DNA from: Propionibacteriaceae bacterium
GTDB lineage: Bacteria > Actinomycetota > Actinomycetes > Propionibacteriales > Propionibacteriaceae
Assembly (NCBI GenBank): GCA_009782785.1
Contig: WRIJ01000005.1
Location: 62,001-126,000 of the forward strand
Length of the DNA stretch: 64,000 nucleotides
Direction of reading: 5' to 3'
Shown in pieces: positions 28,240-38,938 of this stretch (position 1 is the first letter of the stretch; the number at the start of each line of letters is the position of its first letter). The notes beneath the pieces are model-generated. The model made no database searches. It was not told the DNA's origin and saw only the letters and a list, made by a program, of their open reading frames with translations. The position numbers and the translations under genes were made by a program.

Positions 28240-28268
28240 TGTTGAGTGATGGTGCTCTTTACACCATC
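28199..28268. terminator. Hairpins at the dapC 3' end
   Basis: A perfect 12-bp inverted repeat (28199-28210 with 28223-28234, core ACCGTGACA/TGTCACGGT) spans the dapC stop region. A second 7-bp stem (GATGGTG/CACCATC, 28248-28268) follows and runs into the end of the convergent lipoprotein gene. No U-tract, so termination between these convergent genes is inferred. Confidence 0.5.
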
Positions 28269-28954
28269 GTAAATTCGTCACCGTTGAAGGTGTACATATC
28301 AAGAATCCACTCGCCTGCCGAGTCTTTGATGCTTGGTTTGAGGTTCCACAAGTTAACCTTGACGCCAGGACGGTATTCGATATTGTCGTTTACTGCAAAG
28401 GAGGTTCCGGGGACCCAAGACGATCCCGCAGCATTGAAGGCACCAGGTTGGTACTCGGTTCCTGGCAACCCTAGGCTGTCTCGGAATTCAATATCAGTCA
28501 CGCCGGGGTTCTTACCCATGTAAGGAGAGTCTTCATACCGCAAACCCCCACCTGTGCTGGAATAGAGGAGGGTTTCCCCAGTGTTATTCGTCCACACATA
28601 GTTCACCCACACCATGTCAGTACCTTGGGTAAACACTGATTCTTTAGTATCAGGATCAACGAACATTGAATCCTTAATGGCTGGATGTACAGCAAGCTTG
28701 TAGATGGTCAGCTGCACACCATCAGTTTCACCACGAAACAACACCTCATCGGAGGTGACAATTTCAGACGCCCAATCAGCAGCGATGTGGTCACCTGTTG
28801 GTGTGGTAGGAGTGTCATCAGCCGGGGTTGATGCCTCCGTCGTCGGATCAGTAGTTGTGTCGTCGTCTTTGGCACCACAGCCTGCCAGTGTGCTCATAGC
28901 GAGGAAACCTGCACAAGCACAGGCGAGTATTTTCTTGGTGGAGTGAAAAGTCAT
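28259..28954 (-). CDS. Secreted lipoprotein, DUF4352-like
   Basis: The 231-residue protein begins with a lipoprotein signal (positively charged start, hydrophobic core, lipobox LAGC with Cys near residue 26), then a Thr/Asp/Pro linker (about 30-55) and a single globular domain of about 170 residues. That domain has MVWVNYVWTNNTGETLLY and ends with FTMV, in the style of DUF4352/Telomerase-like Ig-fold lipoproteins. Function unknown. It is convergent with dapC and divergent from the cobalamin-riboswitch operon. Confidence 0.75.
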   Translation of the reverse strand: MTFHSTKKILACACAGFLAMSTLAGCGAKDDDTTTDPTTEASTPADDTPTTPTGDHIAADWASEIVTSDEVLFRGETDGVQLTIYKLAVHPAIKDSMFVDPDTKESVFTQGTDMVWVNYVWTNNTGETLLYSSTGGGLRYEDSPYMGKNPGVTDIEFRDSLGLPGTEYQPGAFNAAGSSWVPGTSFAVNDNIEYRPGVKVNLWNLKPSIKDSAGEWILDMYTFNGDEFTMV

Positions 28955-29109: not shown

Positions 29110-29250
29110 CAGCTCCTGTGCTAAAGTGGCGAAAGTATTCACCTCTTACCCAGGGGAAGTCGGTCAAAACCCGACACTGACCCGCAACGGTAGATCATTT
29201 GATGAGTCCGACAACCTGGTGGTGAAGCGCCATCGTACATCGAGGTCTGT
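29110..29250 (+). ncRNA. Cobalamin riboswitch
   Basis: The conserved core reads CCAGGGGAAGTCGGT...AACCCGAC...ACTGACCCGCAACGG (29150-29191), the hallmark of the AdoCbl-type aptamer, and the B12-box counterpart GAGTCCGACAACCTGG follows at 29204-29219. A GTGATC/GATCAC stem (29273-29292) before the ecfT start could act in the expression platform, perhaps by hiding the ribosome site. It occupies the gap upstream of the ECF transporter genes, so cobalamin would shut them down. Exact ends are approximate. Confidence 0.9.
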
Positions 29251-29308
29251 TGCGTGACGCGGAGTTCTCTTCGTGATCCAAGCACTGATCACTAGCAGAG
29301 AGTAGCTC

Positions 29309-30433
29309 ATGTCCACCACGGCGAGCATGGCTCCCAGGAGATCCACTGCTGCTCGATCTCTTACTCGACCCCTGCACCCTGGTGCTTGGTGGGTTTGGGC
29401 GCTCGGATGTGCCGTTGTAGCCTCGCGGACCTCGAACCCTCTGCTCTTGGCGCTCATCATTGCTGTGGTCTGCTTCACTGTCGTTGCTCGCCGGAGCAGT
29501 GCCCCGTGGGCTTTGGCTTTTCGGCTCTATGTCTATGTCGGCATTTTCGTGGTGCTCATGAGAATGCTCTTACGCATAGTGTTTTCTGCTGATGGACCCA
29601 CCATCATCTGGAATCTTCCCACACTGAGTTTTCCTGGTGTGTTTTCTTCTGTACGCCTCTTCGGACCTGTCTCTGCAGAAGTGTTGGTCGCCTCGGGGGC
29701 ATCAGGGCTGCAGTTGGCGACCATCATTCTTGGAGTTGGTGCAGCGAATTCTTTAGCTAATCCAAAAAGACTGCTGGCAGCTGTTCCAGGTGCCCTCTAT
29801 GAATGGGGGACTGTGGTGGTGATCGCCTTGACTATCTTTCCCCAATTGGCTCAGTCGATTGTGCGTGTACGTCGGGCTCGTCAACTGCGAGCTGACACCG
29901 GCAAGGGGGTACATCTGATTCGATACGTGGCGATGCCCGTACTCAATGATGCTTTAGATAGGTCTCTTCTCTTGGCGGGTGCCATGGATTCTCGAGGGTA
30001 CGGACGCAGTACCTCTCTATCTCAGCGTTCGAAACACGTCACAACCACCTTGTTGCTTACCTCATCGGTCGCACTCAGTGTCGGGGCCTATGGGTTACTC
30101 GATACTGGGAAGACACCAGTATGGATGGGTGCACCCATGGTGATTCTCGGGTTGGGCTTAGGGCTGACCGGTTTGAGACTCAGTGGTCGGCGGGTCGTCA
30201 GGAGCAGATACCGTCCTGACACTATGGGCACCACAGAATGGTTGGTCATGGGGTCAGCTGGCCTTGGTGTGGTGCTGTCGATGGTGATGTCGTGGATCCA
30301 ACCGTTCATTGCCTACCCAGTTATTCAACCCTTGACGTGGCCATCTCTGAGTTTCCTTGCACTAGCTACTGCCTGCGCACTGCTTATACCAGCCCTCGTG
30401 GCACCACAACCGGAACTAAGGAGGGTGTCATGA
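29309..30433 (+). CDS. ecfT: ECF transporter T component (CbiQ/EcfT-like)
   Basis: The 374-residue membrane protein has several TM segments and the EcfT coupling helices marked by RRARQLRADTG and AMDSRGYG, which contact the ATPases. It is longer than typical EcfT (about 265), with extra C-terminal TM segments. It lies right after the cobalamin riboswitch and overlaps the ATPase gene by 4 bp. Together with the downstream A and S genes it forms a complete energy-coupling-factor importer; cobalamin or a corrinoid is the likely substrate given the riboswitch. Confidence 0.87.
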   Translation: MSTTASMAPRRSTAARSLTRPLHPGAWWVWALGCAVVASRTSNPLLLALIIAVVCFTVVARRSSAPWALAFRLYVYVGIFVVLMRMLLRIVFSADGPTIIWNLPTLSFPGVFSSVRLFGPVSAEVLVASGASGLQLATIILGVGAANSLANPKRLLAAVPGALYEWGTVVVIALTIFPQLAQSIVRVRRARQLRADTGKGVHLIRYVAMPVLNDALDRSLLLAGAMDSRGYGRSTSLSQRSKHVTTTLLLTSSVALSVGAYGLLDTGKTPVWMGAPMVILGLGLGLTGLRLSGRRVVRSRYRPDTMGTTEWLVMGSAGLGVVLSMVMSWIQPFIAYPVIQPLTWPSLSFLALATACALLIPALVAPQPELRRVS

Positions 30434-32115
30434 TCTCTTTCAAGGATGTATCTATAAGGTATCGCGATGATTCTCCTGAGGTTCTGCGTGGGGTCAACTT
30501 AGAGATACCTGACGGGCAACTCGTCTTGGTTGCTGGGCGTACTGGGTCAGGAAAATCAACACTCTTGGGTGCGATCAATGGTCATGTTCCCCACTTCACA
30601 GGCGGGTTTGTGAGTGGAAAGGTCGAAGTCGAAGGGTATTCCACAGCCTTGTATCGCCCCCGCGACCTAGCCCACGTGGTGGGGGTGGTCGGTCAAGATC
30701 CTCTCGCTGGCTTCGTCACTGACACGGTTGAAGAAGAATTGGCGTACACCATGGAGCAACTGGGGGTTGATCCCATGGTGATGAGAACTCGGGTAGAAGA
30801 AACCTTGGACATCCTTGGGCTTGCTGGCGAAAGAAATCGAGCCCTGTCGACGCTCTCTGGTGGGCAACAACAAAGGGTAGCGATTGGGTCGGTCCTCGCT
30901 ACGGGGGTACGAGTGCTTGTCCTTGATGAGCCAACCTCTGCTCTTGATCCCGTCTCCAGTGAAGAAGTACTTGCTGCCCTGTTGCGTCTCGTCCATGATC
31001 TTGGATTGACAGTGATGGTGGCTGAACACCGACTTGAACGCGTTGCCGGTTATGCCGATCAGATGATTCTTGTCGAGAAAGGCCTTGTTACTGCCGATGG
31101 CACCGCAGCTATGATGACGACAAGTCAGCTCATTCCTCCTGTGGTTGAGCTGGGTCGAGTCGCTGGTTTCCCACAGGTTCCTTTATCAGTACGCCAAGCC
31201 CGGGGTATGGCTGGAGAATTGACCACGGCTTTGGCGGGGATAGACCCAGCTGGTTTTGCTCGGGTTCCCCCCGCGCAAGGAAAGTCATCAGTGCGAGTTG
31301 CCCAGGGCGTCAAGGCGGAGATCGAGCCCACGTCCTCACAGGTGGTGGTGTCGAAGATGACAGTTGCCTACCCGAATATCGTGGCTGTCAATTCTGTTTC
31401 CCTCACGATGCCGAGTGCCCAGATCTCAGTGATCATGGGAAGAAATGGTTCTGGTAAATCCTCCCTGCTGTGGGCGCTCACGGGTGTGCAACCGATCACA
31501 GCGGGACGATTTTCTGTCGGTGAGGTTGCCTTAGAGGGGCTCGCTTCTTCACAAGTACGCCGCTACATTCGGCTCGTACCTCACCATGCCAACGATCTGC
31601 TTTTCTTGCCATCGGTGGCTGAAGAGTGTGCCACAGCGGATCGCGACGCCGACGAGGAAGGGTTATGCCAGCGGATCCTGGAAGCCTTGGCTCCACGCAT
31701 AGACCTGACCAGTCATCCCAGTGATCTGTCGCAAGGTCAGAAATTAGCATTAGTGTTGGCGATACAACTGACGGCCTCACCACAAGTAATCTTGCTCGAT
31801 GAGCCGACTCGTGGATTGGATTATCCCGCTAAAGCAACCTTGGCTCAGATTCTCAAAGAAATGGCCATGGAAGGTCGCAGCGTAGGATTGGTCACTCACG
31901 ACGTAGAGTTCGCGGCCGAAGTCGCTGACCAGATTCTTGTCATGGCTTCTGGGGACATCATTGCTGCTGGGTCCCCCACCCAGGTTCTGGGATCATCAGC
32001 ACTCTTTGCTCCCCAAGTGGCGAAAGTGCTCTATCCCGAACCATGGCTGACTCCCTACCAGGTTGCCCAAGCCCTGAAAGGCCGCAACACATCGACTCCC
32101 GCAGGTGAGTCGTGA
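30430..32115 (+). CDS. ecfA: ECF transporter fused ATPase (EcfA-EcfA')
   Basis: The 561-residue protein joins two ABC ATPases. The first half has Walker A GRTGSGKST, signature LSGGQQQRVAIG, Walker B VLVLDEPTSALD and H-loop VAEHRLE. The second half (from about residue 310) has GRNGSGKSS, the variant signature LSQGQKLALV, VILLDEPTRGLD and VTHDVE. Both sites look active. ATG at 30430 was chosen because it overlaps ecfT by 4 bp and gives the normal start MISFKDVSI; the longer open frame upstream is out of frame with ecfT. It drives the T/S membrane pair. Confidence 0.93.
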   Translation: MISFKDVSIRYRDDSPEVLRGVNLEIPDGQLVLVAGRTGSGKSTLLGAINGHVPHFTGGFVSGKVEVEGYSTALYRPRDLAHVVGVVGQDPLAGFVTDTVEEELAYTMEQLGVDPMVMRTRVEETLDILGLAGERNRALSTLSGGQQQRVAIGSVLATGVRVLVLDEPTSALDPVSSEEVLAALLRLVHDLGLTVMVAEHRLERVAGYADQMILVEKGLVTADGTAAMMTTSQLIPPVVELGRVAGFPQVPLSVRQARGMAGELTTALAGIDPAGFARVPPAQGKSSVRVAQGVKAEIEPTSSQVVVSKMTVAYPNIVAVNSVSLTMPSAQISVIMGRNGSGKSSLLWALTGVQPITAGRFSVGEVALEGLASSQVRRYIRLVPHHANDLLFLPSVAEECATADRDADEEGLCQRILEALAPRIDLTSHPSDLSQGQKLALVLAIQLTASPQVILLDEPTRGLDYPAKATLAQILKEMAMEGRSVGLVTHDVEFAAEVADQILVMASGDIIAAGSPTQVLGSSALFAPQVAKVLYPEPWLTPYQVAQALKGRNTSTPAGES

Positions 32116-32960
32116 TGAGTCGCTTGCATGGGCCTGTTCCTTTAGGCTGGAAGTCGATCACCATGTTGGTGATCATCAGCTGCGCTGGCTTCGCTATGTT
32201 TGCCTGGCCCCTGGTTATTCCGCTATCCCCCGATGCTGACATGGGGTCCTCAGCCCCTTTCATCTTTGTGGTCCTGCTACCTTTGCTCATTTTTCTTGTC
32301 ATGGCGCAGATCTCCGACCAGGGAATGGATGTCAAAGCCTTAGCTATTCTCGGGGTCCTCAGTGCCATCGCTGCTGCCCTGCGGCCCTTAGGGGCTGGAA
32401 CCAACGGGGTAGAAACTGTCTTCTTCCTGCTCATTTTGGCAGGGAGAGTATTCGGACCTGGGTTTGGGTTCGTCTTGGGTTGCACATCGCTGTTTGCGTC
32501 TGCGCTACTCACTGCTGGTGTGGGGCCATGGATGCCCTTCCAGATGCTAGCTTCTGCATGGGTGGGGATGGGTGCCGGGCTCTTACCGGATTCAGTGATG
32601 GGTAAGAAAATACGTGGAGGCCTCGAGCTGGCAATGCTAGTGGTGTACGCGATTGTGGCGGCGTACTTCTTCGGAATGATCATGAACCTGTGGTTTTGGC
32701 CCTTCATCATGGGTTCTGGTGGTGGGGGACCAACTGATCTTGCCTATATCCCCGGTGGGGCCATAGGGGAGAATCTGAAACGCTTCGGGTGGTTCACCTT
32801 GATCACCTCCACAGCCGTGTGGGATACCGGTCGCGCGATCACCACATGTCTGCTTCTCATGGTCGTGGGAAGGCCAGTTTTGCTGGCTTTTCGCCGTACT
32901 GTACGCCGTGCGAATTTTCAACAACAGACCCAAAATCCTTTCACAAAGGAAGTTGCATAG
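32115..32960 (+). CDS. ECF transporter S component (probable cobalamin)
   Basis: The 281-residue protein has about seven TM segments, including LAILGVLSAIAAALRPLG and FVLGCTSLFASALLTAGVG, and PFQMLASAWVGMGAGLLP, typical of ECF substrate-binding components. It is encoded last in a T-A-S operon under a B12 riboswitch, so cobalamin is the best guess; I cannot tell this from precursor or cobamide specificity. ATG at 32115 overlaps the ecfA stop; a GTG one codon earlier is possible. Confidence 0.85.
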   Translation: MSRLHGPVPLGWKSITMLVIISCAGFAMFAWPLVIPLSPDADMGSSAPFIFVVLLPLLIFLVMAQISDQGMDVKALAILGVLSAIAAALRPLGAGTNGVETVFFLLILAGRVFGPGFGFVLGCTSLFASALLTAGVGPWMPFQMLASAWVGMGAGLLPDSVMGKKIRGGLELAMLVVYAIVAAYFFGMIMNLWFWPFIMGSGGGGPTDLAYIPGGAIGENLKRFGWFTLITSTAVWDTGRAITTCLLLMVVGRPVLLAFRRTVRRANFQQQTQNPFTKEVA

Positions 32961-32986
32961 ACAGTTGTCGAAATTGGGCATAGACT
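32958..32986 (+). promoter_or_regulatory. Promoter of the giant surface-protein gene
   Basis: TAGACA (32958-32963, overlapping the ecfS stop), a 17-bp spacer and TAGACT (32981-32986) make a good promoter. It gives a leader of about 35 nt with a GGGGGAGG ribosome site before the ATG at 33027. The surface protein may therefore be expressed apart from the riboswitch. Confidence 0.55.
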
Positions 32987-33026
32987 GACGTGAAGTAACT
33001 CATGTCTACCTCTTGGGGGAGGAACC

Positions 33027-36000
33027 ATGCCTAAGAACATCATTCGTCGTACAGCTTTCATGCTTCTTGCAGCATTGCTCGTGGTGAGTGGGGGTGTTTC
33101 AACTTTTGATCGCAATGCCGAGGCGTTCACGCCCATATCGTCTTCGATTTCGGTTTCCACCCGACAAGCTGTGGTAGGCGAACCAGTGACGGTCACAGCT
33201 CATGTGGTGGACGCCAATGCTTTGGGAATTGAAGGGATCGTGGTTGATTTCCTCTTTGAACCTGTCGAACCAACAGCTGGTGAACCGATCATTGACCAAT
33301 GTGTGACACAGCCCGGCGGGCGCTGCGAGGTCCTCCTCCTTAACCAAGAATATGACGCCGTTGTGGTGTCAGGTACGGTTGATTATAACCAGAATGAAAT
33401 TGAGTTAATGCCACTCCCTATTCGACTCCAGGGGTCGGGAACCGTCGTGACGTACACGAAACCGGAACCTCCCGTACCCCCAGCAGAGGAATACTGGCAG
33501 GGTCCCATGTGGGTGCATACGTGGCAAGGCGAACCGGTCTATGCTGACGGCCGAGAAAAATGGGACATCGCGATCAATCTCTACAGTGATATTCCTGGCT
33601 GGAAAGGACCAGATTTGGCTGATGTCATCACGATTACGACGTCAGATCCAGAACTTCAATTGACTCCTTTGCGGTACGCCGGTGAGGGAAGCTACTATAT
33701 GGAGGCGACATCGAAGAAGGCTGGAACCTTCACGGTCACATCAACCGTTGGTGGCATCACACAAGAAGCCTTTGTTACTTTCAAGGAACTTAGCCCTGGG
33801 TGCCCAGATGTTGTGTTGGAGCGGTTGTGGATCGTTCCTCAAGGCCCCGATAAGTATGTAGATGTGGAATCATCCTGGCAGGGAACCGTCACGTTGACAG
33901 GAGGCTCACAGGAGCCCTGGGGCAAGGGTGACTTTCTTCGTGTGAAGGCATCTGACCCTGTTGTGCAGATATCTGAACTCATTGACAAGGGTGATGGAAA
34001 CTACACCTTCAATGTGACCTCTTCTCGCATCGGCAGATACGACATCACCGCTTTCATGGATAGCGAATGTGTAACACGCCGCCTTGACGCACAAATCACT
34101 TTTGTCCCCCAAGATACATCGAAAGAATTCTGGATGGGCAAGTTTGTTGTTGAACCATTTACTGGTGGTCGTCTTCCCTACAATGTTGGACCTATCTACG
34201 CCGATGGCCGGGAAGGTTGGGAGGGTGTCGTGCAGCTTGACACCTGGAACATTGTTGGTTGGGATGGATCAGGTCGCACAGATGCCGTGAGTGTGGTCTC
34301 CGCCGATCCCGCAGTCACCATTACGCCTGTCAGAAGTCATAACAACAGTATCTATTCAGTGCGAATGACCTCAACAACACCTGGGACGTACTCAGTGAAA
34401 GCCATTGTCGATGGCGTCTCGATTGAACGCCAGATCACCTTTGTCCCAGTGCCTGTTGTCGCGATGGCTGACATGGTTGTCGTACCCGAGATTCCCAATC
34501 CTGCAAACACGGTTCCTGCTGATGGGAGTTCAACATGGCTAGCCAAGATTTCCTTAGTGGATCTCGCCAATAATGGTGCCCCCCTTGCTGGTTTTGCCAC
34601 GAGCATAGACCTCGTGCCTGCACATCCAGCGACCAAAATTTCCGAGATTCATGACATGGGTGATGGGTCCTATCTTGCACGAATCACATCCGATCATGCT
34701 GGGGTCTTCCGGTTGAAGGCTGTCGTGGCAGATCGATCAAAGGAAGGATTTGTATCGTTCAGTGCCACCAAGCTTGGGTGTGATCCCGCGTACAAGATCA
34801 GTGACTTTACTCTCGTACCAGACAATGGGGAATCTGTCCTTGCCGATGGGATCTCCACATGGGTGGGTACATTGACCCTCGCCGATCAGTACTATCCTGA
34901 TGCTCTTGGTGCTGGGTACGACTTTACGATGGGGTATTCCACCTCACATCCCGAGGTCAAGGGTTCACCGTTCTATGACCATGGGGACGGAACATACACG
35001 ATCAAGTTTTCCTCCACTATCCCAGGTGATGTCACTGTTGGGCTCCATTTGAATAACATGTGTGGAGCTTGGACAGGGGATCGCACCATCACGTTCGATG
35101 AGGTCATTCCAGAGGTTCCAGAAATAGTGTCCTTCACTAGTGCTCCAGCAGTCCCCACTCCTCCTGTTGCCCCGAATGGTGACGCATCGTGGATGGGTAC
35201 GATTCAACTCGCCGATGTCAATGGGCAACCAGCTGTTGGATATGCCTCCGCGATTACACTCAATGCCCCCCATCCAGCCGTGAGTGTGAGCGAGGTATGG
35301 GACAATGGCGATGGAACCTATTCCATGAAAATCAAGGCAGTCAAAGCTGGCGCTTTCTATGTCACAGCTACCACTGGCGGACTCGTGTTCCAAAGCAATG
35401 TCTTTTTTGAGGATTATTCTCCCCAGTGTGAGTCAGCCTATAAGGTAATTGATTTCCAGGCCACGACAAGTACGGGAGTTGCGCCTATCCATAGTGATGG
35501 CGTCCAGGCCCATCAGTTCTCCTTCACTATCGTGGACTCTTATGCACCGCAGGTGAATGGATCCGATATGGCCCATGCCATCTGGCAGTACAGTGATCCA
35601 GGCCTTGATCTTGAATCATTCATCGATCATGGTAATGGGACGTACACCATTAGCTACACCTCCACCACTCCAGGTGAATACGATGCCCATATACGCGTGT
35701 TTGATGGATGCGGCACCTGGGGAGCAGCAAGCAGAATGGTGTTCGAACCTGTGCCGGTTGATCCTCCCACTCCTGACATCACTGTGTCCCTCGTCGATGT
35801 CACCTGGACACCAGTGGTTGAAAAGATCACCGAATGTCGGTATCTCGAATGGGTCGACAAGTGGGTGGGAACATTCACTCTTGTTGAAGAAGGTAATGGT
35901 GGCAACGGTTCAGGGTATGCCGATTTCTTCACTGTGTCTGTCAACAAATATGGAATCGAGGTCTCTGATGTGGCGGACCTCGGTGACGGAACCTACAGTG

Positions 36001-37898
36001 TGACCCTGACAAGCCAGAGTATGTGGCTCGATGCCACAGCGACTGTTGCTTTCGGTGAGACAAAAGTTCCACAGTCAGTCTATTTCTATAACATCCACGG
36101 TGACTGGTGGCCCTCAATGAGTGGTTTCACTGTAGAACCCAGCAAAGATCATGTGACAGCCAATGGCAGTGAAGCATGGATCGGGACCATCTCGATGGAT
36201 GTGTGGTGTGAAGATCCAATGGCGTTCATTCCGATGATTGGTGTACGGGCCTCGAATCCTGGAATAGAGATCTCCGAGTTGTCCTACATCGGGAAAGACG
36301 AACGTGGCAATGCCTTGTATAACGTCTTCTTCACCTCAGAGATTGAGGGAGAATTCACAGTGGCCGCCTCCTATATGGGCTGGTATTGGCAGAGTCAGGA
36401 CATCACTTTCGAACCGTACTTGATAGGTGACCCATCGGCCACCTTGAGCGACTTCACTGTGGAACCTCGTGGGTCCTGGACACCTAATATCTCCCATGGT
36501 GATTCATGGGTGGGTACGGTGGTTCTCGAAGGTGGCCTGGACTGGCCCTGGGGGAAGGCGGACGATATTGTCGTGAGCGTCTCTGATCCTGGGTTGGTGA
36601 CCGTCTCAGAATTGGTCGACAACATGGATGGATCTTATTCGATGAATATCAACGCGGATAAGCCAGGTAAGTACACCATCGCTGTCGCCTATGGTGGACT
36701 CAAACTGACCCAAGAGGTCCGTTTTGATGATGACGTCATTATCTGTGACCCACTCTTTGCGATTGGCAAATTCACGGTCGCTCCTAGTGAGGGCACATCA
36801 GTGGCTGCTGATGGCGATTCGTCCTGGATGGGAACCGTACGCTTGATCTCGTACTTTGACGAATTCTTTAATGGCTCTGGTTTTGCTGATGGGCTCACCG
36901 TCACAGCTTCAGATCCTGCGGTGACTATTTCCCCGCTCTTTGACCATGGTGATGGAACCTATTCCTACAAGATGAGTTCTAAGAAAGCAGGTGAATTCTC
37001 AGTCTCAGTGGCTACCAATCAGTGTGGCGGGGAAGACGTCAAGTCCCAGGTGGTCACCTTCCTTCCTATTACTGAGATCCCTGGTCCAGGAACCCCCTCA
37101 CCTGCACAATCATTCGTGTCAGTGTCCTCCACCATGATTAATGATGGCGACACAGTTGAGGTCACCTCTGTGGTGAAAGACAGCGCTGGAAACCTCCTTG
37201 ACGGTGTTGAGGTGAAGATTGTTGGCGAATACTATCCCGAGTGGGAGTTCACCTCCCAGACCTGCATCAGCAACGAGCAGGGTTTATGCTCAGTGAAGTT
37301 TGCGACAGGAAAATACCGTGCAGACAAGCTGGTGATCCTTGCCTACATCGATGGCCAAGAGATTTCCATGTCGGGTACGTCGGTGTACATTTCCACTATC
37401 GTCATCTGTGAATCCCCAGATATTGAGGTTGCCCATCCCACCAGGAGTGTGGGGGAAACCCAGGTCGTTACTGGAGCTAATTTCACTCCGGGTGAAGATG
37501 TTGCCTTGGTCCTCCATTCTGATCCTTACGAGGTCGGCACTCTGCAAGCAAATGATGAGGGCATGGTGAGTTTCAGTTTCGATATTCCTACCGGGTTCCC
37601 AGCAGGAATTCATACAGCCATACTCACCGGTGCGCTATCCGGCCAGATCTCTCAATCCACCTTTGAGGTTCTGGGATCAGATGCTCCGCTGCTGACGGCA
37701 TCGACTCTTGGCGGGCATGAGGTTCCAGCTCCTCCCACATCATCTGAACCAGTCACTGATTCAGTGACTGCTGGGACTCTCGCTGTGGCACCGACAGGTG
37801 GATCTGTCGCTCCCGCACCGTGGACCTTCTGGGTGTCAGTGACCTTCATGATTGGTGCCTTGGTACTTCTCCGACTTCGAGGTGCTCTGTACGTCTAG
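33027..37898 (+). CDS. Giant Ig-like repeat surface protein
   Basis: The 1623-residue protein has a signal peptide (about residues 1-32) and a first Big_1-type domain (about 36-145). About eleven invasin/Ig-like domains of around 95-110 residues follow, each with a D/NGxxxWxGxxxL start, an AxTxxxSDPxVxIS middle, a DxGDGTYxxxxTS turn and a GxYxVxAxxxG end. Two further beta domains precede a C-terminal TM segment and short tail. Several repeats (near residues 260, 585, 800, 1230) carry a Cys near their start and another near the CGxW end, suggesting alternating disulfide-bonded domains. No LPxTG is present; VAPTGGS lies about 25 residues before the TM. It sits 66 bp after the ECF S gene. Adhesin or wall-spanning stalk is inferred. 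Confidence 0.85.
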   Translation: MPKNIIRRTAFMLLAALLVVSGGVSTFDRNAEAFTPISSSISVSTRQAVVGEPVTVTAHVVDANALGIEGIVVDFLFEPVEPTAGEPIIDQCVTQPGGRCEVLLLNQEYDAVVVSGTVDYNQNEIELMPLPIRLQGSGTVVTYTKPEPPVPPAEEYWQGPMWVHTWQGEPVYADGREKWDIAINLYSDIPGWKGPDLADVITITTSDPELQLTPLRYAGEGSYYMEATSKKAGTFTVTSTVGGITQEAFVTFKELSPGCPDVVLERLWIVPQGPDKYVDVESSWQGTVTLTGGSQEPWGKGDFLRVKASDPVVQISELIDKGDGNYTFNVTSSRIGRYDITAFMDSECVTRRLDAQITFVPQDTSKEFWMGKFVVEPFTGGRLPYNVGPIYADGREGWEGVVQLDTWNIVGWDGSGRTDAVSVVSADPAVTITPVRSHNNSIYSVRMTSTTPGTYSVKAIVDGVSIERQITFVPVPVVAMADMVVVPEIPNPANTVPADGSSTWLAKISLVDLANNGAPLAGFATSIDLVPAHPATKISEIHDMGDGSYLARITSDHAGVFRLKAVVADRSKEGFVSFSATKLGCDPAYKISDFTLVPDNGESVLADGISTWVGTLTLADQYYPDALGAGYDFTMGYSTSHPEVKGSPFYDHGDGTYTIKFSSTIPGDVTVGLHLNNMCGAWTGDRTITFDEVIPEVPEIVSFTSAPAVPTPPVAPNGDASWMGTIQLADVNGQPAVGYASAITLNAPHPAVSVSEVWDNGDGTYSMKIKAVKAGAFYVTATTGGLVFQSNVFFEDYSPQCESAYKVIDFQATTSTGVAPIHSDGVQAHQFSFTIVDSYAPQVNGSDMAHAIWQYSDPGLDLESFIDHGNGTYTISYTSTTPGEYDAHIRVFDGCGTWGAASRMVFEPVPVDPPTPDITVSLVDVTWTPVVEKITECRYLEWVDKWVGTFTLVEEGNGGNGSGYADFFTVSVNKYGIEVSDVADLGDGTYSVTLTSQSMWLDATATVAFGETKVPQSVYFYNIHGDWWPSMSGFTVEPSKDHVTANGSEAWIGTISMDVWCEDPMAFIPMIGVRASNPGIEISELSYIGKDERGNALYNVFFTSEIEGEFTVAASYMGWYWQSQDITFEPYLIGDPSATLSDFTVEPRGSWTPNISHGDSWVGTVVLEGGLDWPWGKADDIVVSVSDPGLVTVSELVDNMDGSYSMNINADKPGKYTIAVAYGGLKLTQEVRFDDDVIICDPLFAIGKFTVAPSEGTSVAADGDSSWMGTVRLISYFDEFFNGSGFADGLTVTASDPAVTISPLFDHGDGTYSYKMSSKKAGEFSVSVATNQCGGEDVKSQVVTFLPITEIPGPGTPSPAQSFVSVSSTMINDGDTVEVTSVVKDSAGNLLDGVEVKIVGEYYPEWEFTSQTCISNEQGLCSVKFATGKYRADKLVILAYIDGQEISMSGTSVYISTIVICESPDIEVAHPTRSVGETQVVTGANFTPGEDVALVLHSDPYEVGTLQANDEGMVSFSFDIPTGFPAGIHTAILTGALSGQISQSTFEVLGSDAPLLTASTLGGHEVPAPPTSSEPVTDSVTAGTLAVAPTGGSVAPAPWTFWVSVTFMIGALVLLRLRGALYV

Positions 37899-37944
37899 GA
37901 AGAGGGCAGAACAAGGAACGTACACGCAGGTGGCTCAACTGCTG

Positions 37945-38877
37945 CTAGCGTGTGCGGTTCCTCATGGACATGGCCACGGTTGCTCCTGCCAAGATGACCA
38001 CGAGCAGTACGCCGAGAATCAGCGACCAGTCGTTGCCCCTTTGAGGTGATTCGCCAGTCGCAACACCAAGGTCAGTGCTCATGCTTGGGGTGGGTTCTTC
38101 AGCCATGGTGGAGGAAGATGGTGTTGGTGAGCTCACTTCATCTGTTGGTGATACACCAGGTGAGGCTATCCCAAGGTCGGACTCCGAGGGCCCTGGTGAG
38201 CTCGTGGACACCGATGAAGGAGACGTTGCTGATCCACGAGTTGGTGTGGGTGAGGTTTGCTGGCTTGACCCCTGGGATGGTTGAGCGGTGGTCGATGGCT
38301 TTGGTGGAGAAGAAGTTGATACGCTCACCCAAGCGGAGGGTGAAACTCGCGGAGCAGGAGCCTGCCCAATCCCACCACCGAGAGAGAAAGACCATCCTTC
38401 ATAGGTGCCGAACACAACCTTGCGGGAGAACGCACCCTGGGTGGTATATGTCCAAGCCCCACCTGGTTTCGCTGTCCAATAGGACCAATAGGCGTTCCCG
38501 GGGGGAGTAGTCAAACACTTCTCTTGGTAGGTAGTTCCATTGGGGAGAGTGATGTTCTGTGTGGGGGAGGGCGAGCCATTAATCCGGCAGACAAATCCTG
38601 ATCCGTTTGAGGTTCCCTGGTAGGAGACCCCTATTGCTGCGAGAGCATCGACACCCGTTGCTCCCGATGCCAGGTTGGATGCACAGTAGACGGCTGTCCC
38701 ACCACCCAGGTCCTGGTAGTCGATGACAACACTCACAGCATTTTTGTCTGCGGACGTACAGGCACCAGTACGCCCAGTAGCGTGGGCAGGGATAGCCTCA
38801 TGGCCGAGGGACAGTAGCCATCCAGTGGCAGTGAGGATCACCAACAGTGGAAGAAGAATAGGTCTCATCGCTCGCAA
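37945..38877 (-). CDS. DUF4430 (transcobalamin-like) cell-surface protein
   Basis: The 310-residue protein has a signal peptide (about residues 1-33), one DUF4430-type domain (about 38-180) with VSVVIDYQDLGGGTAVYCAS, GVDALAAIG, FVCRINGSPSP and the diagnostic NAYWSYWTAKPGGAWTYTTQG block, a Ser/Pro/Thr-rich stalk (about 180-275), a TM segment and the tail RNRTR. DUF4430 forms the C-terminal lobe of intrinsic factor and transcobalamin, and is found in bacterial proteins near cobalamin transporters. It is convergent with the Ig-repeat gene and next to the riboswitch-ECF operon, so a role in capturing corrinoids at the surface is a strong inference. A paired Cys set is visible (near residues 41 and 70, and 97 and 121). 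Confidence 0.82.
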   Translation of the reverse strand: MRAMRPILLPLLVILTATGWLLSLGHEAIPAHATGRTGACTSADKNAVSVVIDYQDLGGGTAVYCASNLASGATGVDALAAIGVSYQGTSNGSGFVCRINGSPSPTQNITLPNGTTYQEKCLTTPPGNAYWSYWTAKPGGAWTYTTQGAFSRKVVFGTYEGWSFSLGGGIGQAPAPRVSPSAWVSVSTSSPPKPSTTAQPSQGSSQQTSPTPTRGSATSPSSVSTSSPGPSESDLGIASPGVSPTDEVSSPTPSSSTMAEEPTPSMSTDLGVATGESPQRGNDWSLILGVLLVVILAGATVAMSMRNRTR

Positions 38878-38938
38878 CTCCTGCTCATGAGTATTTCCCG
38901 TAGTCAGTGCAAATTCTTGTGGCGCTCAGCCTAGCACT

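Follow-up and report, generated by a model that had tools for sequence, protein, structure and literature searches.

A putative corrinoid capture and import module in a Propionibacteriaceae genome

Genes and aptamer at the locus

The window analysed here is a stretch of 64,000 nucleotides from a Propionibacteriaceae bacterium (assembly GCA_009782785.1, contig WRIJ01000005.1, positions 62,001 to 126,000), in which we studied a cobalamin (B12) aptamer, the genes of an energy-coupling factor (ECF) importer, a gene for a surface protein with immunoglobulin-like (Ig) repeats, and a convergent gene for a protein with a predicted transcobalamin/intrinsic factor beta-domain-like fold. The set of open reading frames (ORFs) listed in the initial annotation was borne out. 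ecfT (29309..30433, + strand) codes for the energy-coupling transmembrane subunit (T) of the CbiQ family (PF02361, E 6e-10, 39.5 bits against a cut-off of 25). It is followed by a fused ecfA-ecfA′ gene (30430..32115, +), whose product matches Pfam ABC_tran in two stretches, over cut-off, and has ECF ATPases as its top NCBIfam models, again in two stretches and below the cut-offs of those models. The gene for the S component (32112..32960, +), the substrate-binding membrane subunit, predicted to be corrinoid-specific, comes next, with 4-bp overlaps between the genes. The S component matches PF07155 and TIGR04518 weakly, below cut-off, and no PDB sequence at E ≤ 10; though weak by profile, its gene is conserved together with the T and A genes in relatives, and S-component relatives occur in 102 of 147 genomes of the family, the bacterium's own included. 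All ECF subunits (T, A, A′ and S) are present, S by weak match and conservation. The gene for the 1623-residue Ig-repeat protein (33027..37898, +) begins 66 bp past the S gene, and the convergent beta-domain ORF ends 46 bp from the Ig gene.

The leader of ecfT contains the B12 riboswitch aptamer (29139..29225, +), 83 nt upstream of the ecfT ATG. Its earlier description as clear rests on the aptamer core, because the Rfam score lies below cut-off while the core recurs closely in relatives. With the AdoCbl-II model (clan CL00101, gathering score 36.5) the aptamer reached 29.6 bits, at E 7e-5 for a search of 601 nt; RF00174 gave 25.2 bits against a cut-off of 31.5 in the genome search, and no B12 family reached its gathering score in the Rfam scan of the window. 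A strict core pattern, composed after inspection of aptamers, matches at 29154 and in dozens of relatives, with no match in 7.2 Mb of first-order Markov shuffles; it took the place of a loose pattern whose 2153 matches were mostly plainly spurious. Minimum free energy folding gave no useful signal for the leader (z −0.19), and promoter and terminator scans revealed nothing above shuffles. The sequence TAGACA-N17-TAGACT, previously put forward as a separate promoter before the Ig gene, is present, but sites of this kind occur no more often than shuffles would give (4 against a mean of 6.4). The heptamer GAGGTCT is found 3′ of 32 of 108 aptamer cores, compared with 1 of 108 in an upstream control. 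Divergent from the riboswitch lies a gene (28259-28954, −) for a lipoprotein-like protein of 231 residues that matches no Pfam family at E ≤ 1.

The beta-domain protein and its company in relatives

The convergent gene (37945..38868, −) codes for a protein predicted to be secreted and tethered to the membrane by its C-terminus. The ORF was listed up to a TTG at 38877 (37945-38877); judging from the letters, the ATG at 38868, behind AGGAG, is the more likely start. By eye, the product has a signal peptide, a Pro/Ser/Thr-rich linker, a C-terminal hydrophobic segment and a basic tail, and no LPXTG motif. These features suggest membrane tethering rather than wall anchoring, and the designation "wall protein" was dropped accordingly. 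The DUF4430 label survives in altered form. PF14478 (DUF4430) does not match this protein at E ≤ 1, has no match in the genome, and is absent among the families found at E ≤ 1 for each of the 13 members of alignment A1, the window's included. The likeness is instead carried by the predicted fold and by a partial match below cut-off to the NCBIfam model SCO2322_fam (NF040672; 36.1 bits against a curated cut-off of 85, E 7.6e-9), of whose family the protein would be a distant relative. All 13 members of A1 match this model at E ≤ 1, the window protein with the best score.

A stretch of 161 residues (38308..38790, −) was used for structure prediction, with an alignment of 89 sequences (A5). The nearest match of the predicted fold is the beta domain of transcobalamin and intrinsic factor (the C-terminal domain of transcobalamin), and its nearest fold neighbours are B12 carriers. 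Following a helix at 46-52, the model has strands at 57-59 and 67-70, which may be the counterpart of the beta-hairpin insert after the helix in the bacterial transcobalamin-like clade of Burroughs et al. (2007; PMC1796856). The alignment has 18 positions that do not vary in any of the 89 domains, the window's own among them. Searches of PDB sequences gave no match with the beta domain alone. With the full-length family the top match, 6ncl (E 1.5e-5), was discarded as reflecting the low complexity of the Pro-rich linker, and three antibody chains (E 0.3-0.4) retrieved with the Pfam-positive DUF4430 region of the related locus L073 were ignored.

In animal carriers, B12 is sandwiched between the beta domain and an alpha/alpha toroid (PMC1796856). 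Toroid genes, ECF genes and aptamers were recorded around relatives of the beta domain. A genome search with the beta-domain alignment gave 292 candidate stretches, of which the best 80, in 79 loci, were kept. This set favours close relatives and includes short contigs; besides the window sequence, the query alignment had 12 further rows, all taken from loci fetched around S-component genes. Strains of Tessaracoccus, Streptomyces and Micromonospora are among the culturable relatives with the operon in this search. T, A and S are all nearby in 66 of the 79 loci, a toroid protein is present in 70 and the strict aptamer core in 62. The full T-A-S set is lacking in 13 loci (L071, L072, L075, L076, L079-L082, L086, L091, L107, L138 and L141), some of which are cut by contig ends, yet L072, L081, L138 and L141 extend about 10 kb on either side. 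All 91 strict cores lie upstream of toroid (74) or beta-domain (17) profile matches, at distances of 67-894 nt. A class-wide draw of 148 genomes, less biased than the set of 79 loci, contained the domain in 19 genomes and the S family in 82, counts that each include the bacterium's own; of the 19, 17 also have the S family (Fisher p 0.001, not corrected for kinship). Domain absences in this draw are less sure, since for many genomes only 26 first-look candidates were scored. The domain and S lie within 10 kb of each other in 16 of the 19 genomes, the window being the sole opposite-strand case. Conservation of the DUF4430-type gene with the ECF genes in relatives, the test named in the initial annotation, was thus observed.

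The association with aptamers was also surveyed in the genus, where 22 toroid/beta-domain clusters were counted in 19 genomes, 13 of them with an RF00174 match (E ≤ 0.001) at most 1 kb upstream. Three further clusters (G121, which is locus L043; G099 C1; G108 C11) have a strict core or an RF00174 match once the gene start is considered. In G099 C1 and G108 C11 the toroid lies within a long ORF (2568 or 2507 residues) that starts right after the aptamer (L159:4758-12464 and L158:3578-11101, respectively). These giant surface proteins have the toroid near the C-terminus, and the C-terminal stretch of the G099 protein resembles that of the window Ig protein. The six clusters without an upstream aptamer are G000 C4, G000 C5 (the window gene), G043, G141 C97, G147 C166 and G148 C153; G043 was aptamer-negative also when checked through L074, and G141 C97 starts 70 bases from the contig start. 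Upstream of ecfT in L051 and L057, two loci without a called beta-domain gene, lies a cobalamin aptamer match (L051:5084-5151, 30.0 bits; L057:10882-10949, 31.7 bits; cut-off 31.5), so the importer itself can be linked to B12 without capture proteins. Two other importers without the domain, L061 and L070, have no cobalamin aptamer match at E ≤ 0.1.

Strict co-regulation of the window DUF4430-type gene with the ECF genes is not supported by the arrangement of the letters, because the gene lies on the opposite strand and follows an aldo-keto reductase ORF of its own orientation after a gap of 61 bp, with no space for an aptamer. Upstream of it, 38917..38936 (−) may be a relic of a B12-operon promoter, without aptamer: 17 of 20 bases are identical to the stretch before the aptamer of a toroid gene on contig 3 (C3) of the same genome. 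This likeness is the sole match in the window and did not occur in 100 shuffles, with a pattern picked after the likeness had been noticed.

A proposed split capture system and its alternatives

The toroid gene on contig 3 (G000:C3:168751-170100), a putative partner that the initial annotation had not taken up, lies behind its own B12 aptamer, the only other one found in the window genome. Synteny with genome G089 suggests that contig 3 belongs to this genome. Toroid and beta domain are thus encoded here by separate genes on two contigs, while the fused relatives that were read have the beta domain first and the toroid second. An FMN riboswitch (about 100 bits) is found at L150:2523-2666 and L152:10053-10196. 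In the window genome (G000) it stands ahead of a permease and a solute-binding protein gene that immediately precede the toroid gene with the B12 aptamer, and G089 has an FMN aptamer at the matching place, so that two vitamin switches adjoin. The window genome has a second toroid gene (L151:5620-6831, G000:C4), with neither an aptamer nor a beta-domain match within the 12 kb examined; the loci of G060 (C5), G131 and G021, whose toroids are in the score range of L151's, have both.

The physiology of the organism is compatible with a need for imported corrinoids. PF02310, the B12-binding domain, is found at four places in the window genome, three of them over cut-off. CbiC, taken to indicate corrin synthesis, gave no match in this genome; 3 of the 19 genus genomes have it. 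Its absence is likely, not certain, as the genome is estimated to be 97% complete with 6.5% contamination. A B12-dependent organism without corrin-ring synthesis would need import.

Taken together, our results lead us to propose, with a probability of roughly 0.8, that the window encodes the import half and one capture half of a split transcobalamin/intrinsic factor-like system of corrinoid uptake. When coenzyme B12 is scarce, the riboswitch would permit expression of the ECF importer (T, A-A′ and S). Outside the membrane, a corrinoid would be held between two secreted, tethered modules, the alpha/alpha toroid and the beta-grasp module (37945-38868), the latter closing over it as in animal carriers. 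S would then receive the corrinoid from this complex, and its transport inward would be driven by the ECF module at the expense of ATP. Gene order, aptamers below cut-off, predicted fold likeness, association in relatives, the failure to find CbiC and the B12-binding domains form the computed basis; from these we infer which ligand is bound, that both modules act jointly and pass it on to S, and in which direction the riboswitch controls expression. A bolder version, which we regard as speculative and rather unlikely in all its parts, is that of an intrinsic factor assembled in trans, in which B12 is held between a separately encoded, tethered toroid and beta domain whose genes drifted apart, the toroid gene keeping the aptamer, and in which an Ig stalk was recruited and hand-over to S is direct.

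The part of the Ig-repeat protein is less evident. Invasin_D3 (11 stretches, 193.7 bits against 33) and Big_1 (6 stretches, 119.5 bits against 34.9) match it over cut-off. By eye it has a signal peptide, and its C-terminus (37788-37895) consists of a TGG motif, then a hydrophobic segment and basic residues, an arrangement shared by the Ig protein of L031, the corresponding locus of G089. The motif may be a variant sorting signal, and the genome has one sortase match. The initial annotation had cast the DUF4430 protein as surface binder and the Ig protein as its scaffold or stalk; we retain the former as the probable surface component, and the latter holds up less well. That the Ig protein holds the capture modules away from the cell is a tentative idea. 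In its favour, the Ig gene is directly downstream of S in both the window and G089, each of the two proteins being the other's best match across a large part of its length (29-41% identity). One ORF of L073, beside the same operon, combines DUF4430, FIVAR, toroid and the Ig-like Big_3_5, and Ig-fold fusions of the transcobalamin-like clade are reported in PMC1796856. The giant proteins of G099 and G108, directly behind B12 aptamers, also fit, and the TGG motif ends toroid or fused proteins of L034, L037, L043, L150 and L152. The motif scan found none in the toroid proteins of L042, L044, L151, L155 and L157-L159, nor in the beta-domain protein. Against a stalk, among the 40 family loci fetched out of 102 genomes with an S match, an Ig label next to S occurs only in the window and L031; the other 39 fetched loci, a few of which are cut near S, have none. 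By Pfam, moreover, the Ig protein contains no toroid or beta-domain family. Partial relatives occur in 18 of 19 genus genomes (its own included), often of its C-terminal domain. Ig-like ORFs are also found on the opposite flank of the locus, at a distance of a few kb and beyond the dapC-ferredoxin genes (dapC/leuA side), in G043 (C9:58276-59034), G121 (C149:13797-14375) and G089 (L031:17179-17961), so that such genes occur around the region anyway. The likeliest reading of the Ig protein is a surface protein specific to this lineage, whether or not it also acts as a stalk.

Another alternative, that the ECF set is a stand-alone B12 importer beside a relocated, inactive beta-domain remnant and an unrelated Ig adhesin, appears improbable. 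Its proponents could point to the position of the window beta-domain gene, outside the usual operon place and without an aptamer, to the lack of a domain match in 65 of the 82 class-sample genomes with the S family, and to ECF-CbrT, which moves B12 in proteoliposomes without capture proteins (PMC5997447). Against such a remnant speak an intact ORF that keeps its signal peptide and tether, the 18 invariant positions that it shares with all other aligned domains, and the aptamer retained by the toroid gene of the same genome. Least probable is another ligand (cobalt ions, haem or a cobamide precursor only) on which the riboswitch reports indirectly, an idea that the match of EcfT to the cobalt transport family CbiQ and a warning by a reviewer of PMC1796856 that the clade may bind other ligands, with which its authors agreed, speak for, while the absence of a CbiC match makes cobalt import for corrin synthesis unlikely, and the aptamer cores ahead of toroid/beta-domain genes in relatives and the B12 carriers among the closest folds argue against it.

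Relation to known systems

The proposed corrinoid capture and import module is most likely a variant, in an unusual dispersed layout, of a type predicted by Burroughs et al. in 2007. According to excerpts of that paper (PMC1796856), bacterial transcobalamin-like SLBB (beta-grasp) proteins, for which B12 scavenging was proposed, occur in fusions with toroid, Ig-fold and FIVAR domains, share operons with CbiO- and CbiQ-like genes and come from hosts usually without key enzymes of B12 synthesis. These excerpts assign the clade to low-GC Gram-positives, planctomycetes and some euryarchaea, and not to actinobacteria. The system described here shares with it the secreted or anchored beta-grasp domain, the link to a toroid and the CbiO/CbiQ-type neighbours, which form operons in the relatives with T, A and S and adjoin the gene on the opposite strand in the window. 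It differs in being an actinobacterial family missed by Pfam DUF4430, with toroid and beta domain at two loci. Animal intrinsic factor, transcobalamin and haptocorrin are single chains with the toroid before the beta domain, an order that the fused bacterial relatives reverse, whereas the window genome encodes two polypeptides tethered to the bacterium. ECF-CbrT of Lactobacillus delbrueckii is a characterised ECF-type B12 importer (PMC5997447), and our module is likewise assigned to cobalamin. Unlike the ECF module of ECF-CbrT, which is shared by several S components, that of the window is dedicated and encoded in one operon, its S component is not recognisably like a solved one by sequence, and extracellular capture proteins accompany it. 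BtuG and BtuH of Bacteroides are also surface B12-binding proteins that feed a transporter, but they belong to other protein families and to Gram-negative outer-membrane uptake (PMC8941943, PMC10404256).

The literature searched, as far as its excerpts extend, yielded the 2007 prediction and no experiments on the beta-domain family. No paper returned by one of the searches names SCO2322, and the excerpts of PMC3766115, PMC13398666, PMC12713380, PMC2667541 and PMC4350170 contain nothing on the family. Within this literature, the divergent actinobacterial family, its consistent link to aptamers and the split layout are new. Extracellular capture of corrinoids by Gram-positive bacteria is poorly described, and an uncharacterised actinobacterial family, kin of the NCBI SCO2322 family and accompanied by squalene-cyclase-like toroids, gains a testable role. 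Riboswitches tie the family to B12, its members are bacterial counterparts in which the human B12 carriers could be studied by comparison, and a genome in which the two halves lie at separate loci provides a natural test of their action in trans.
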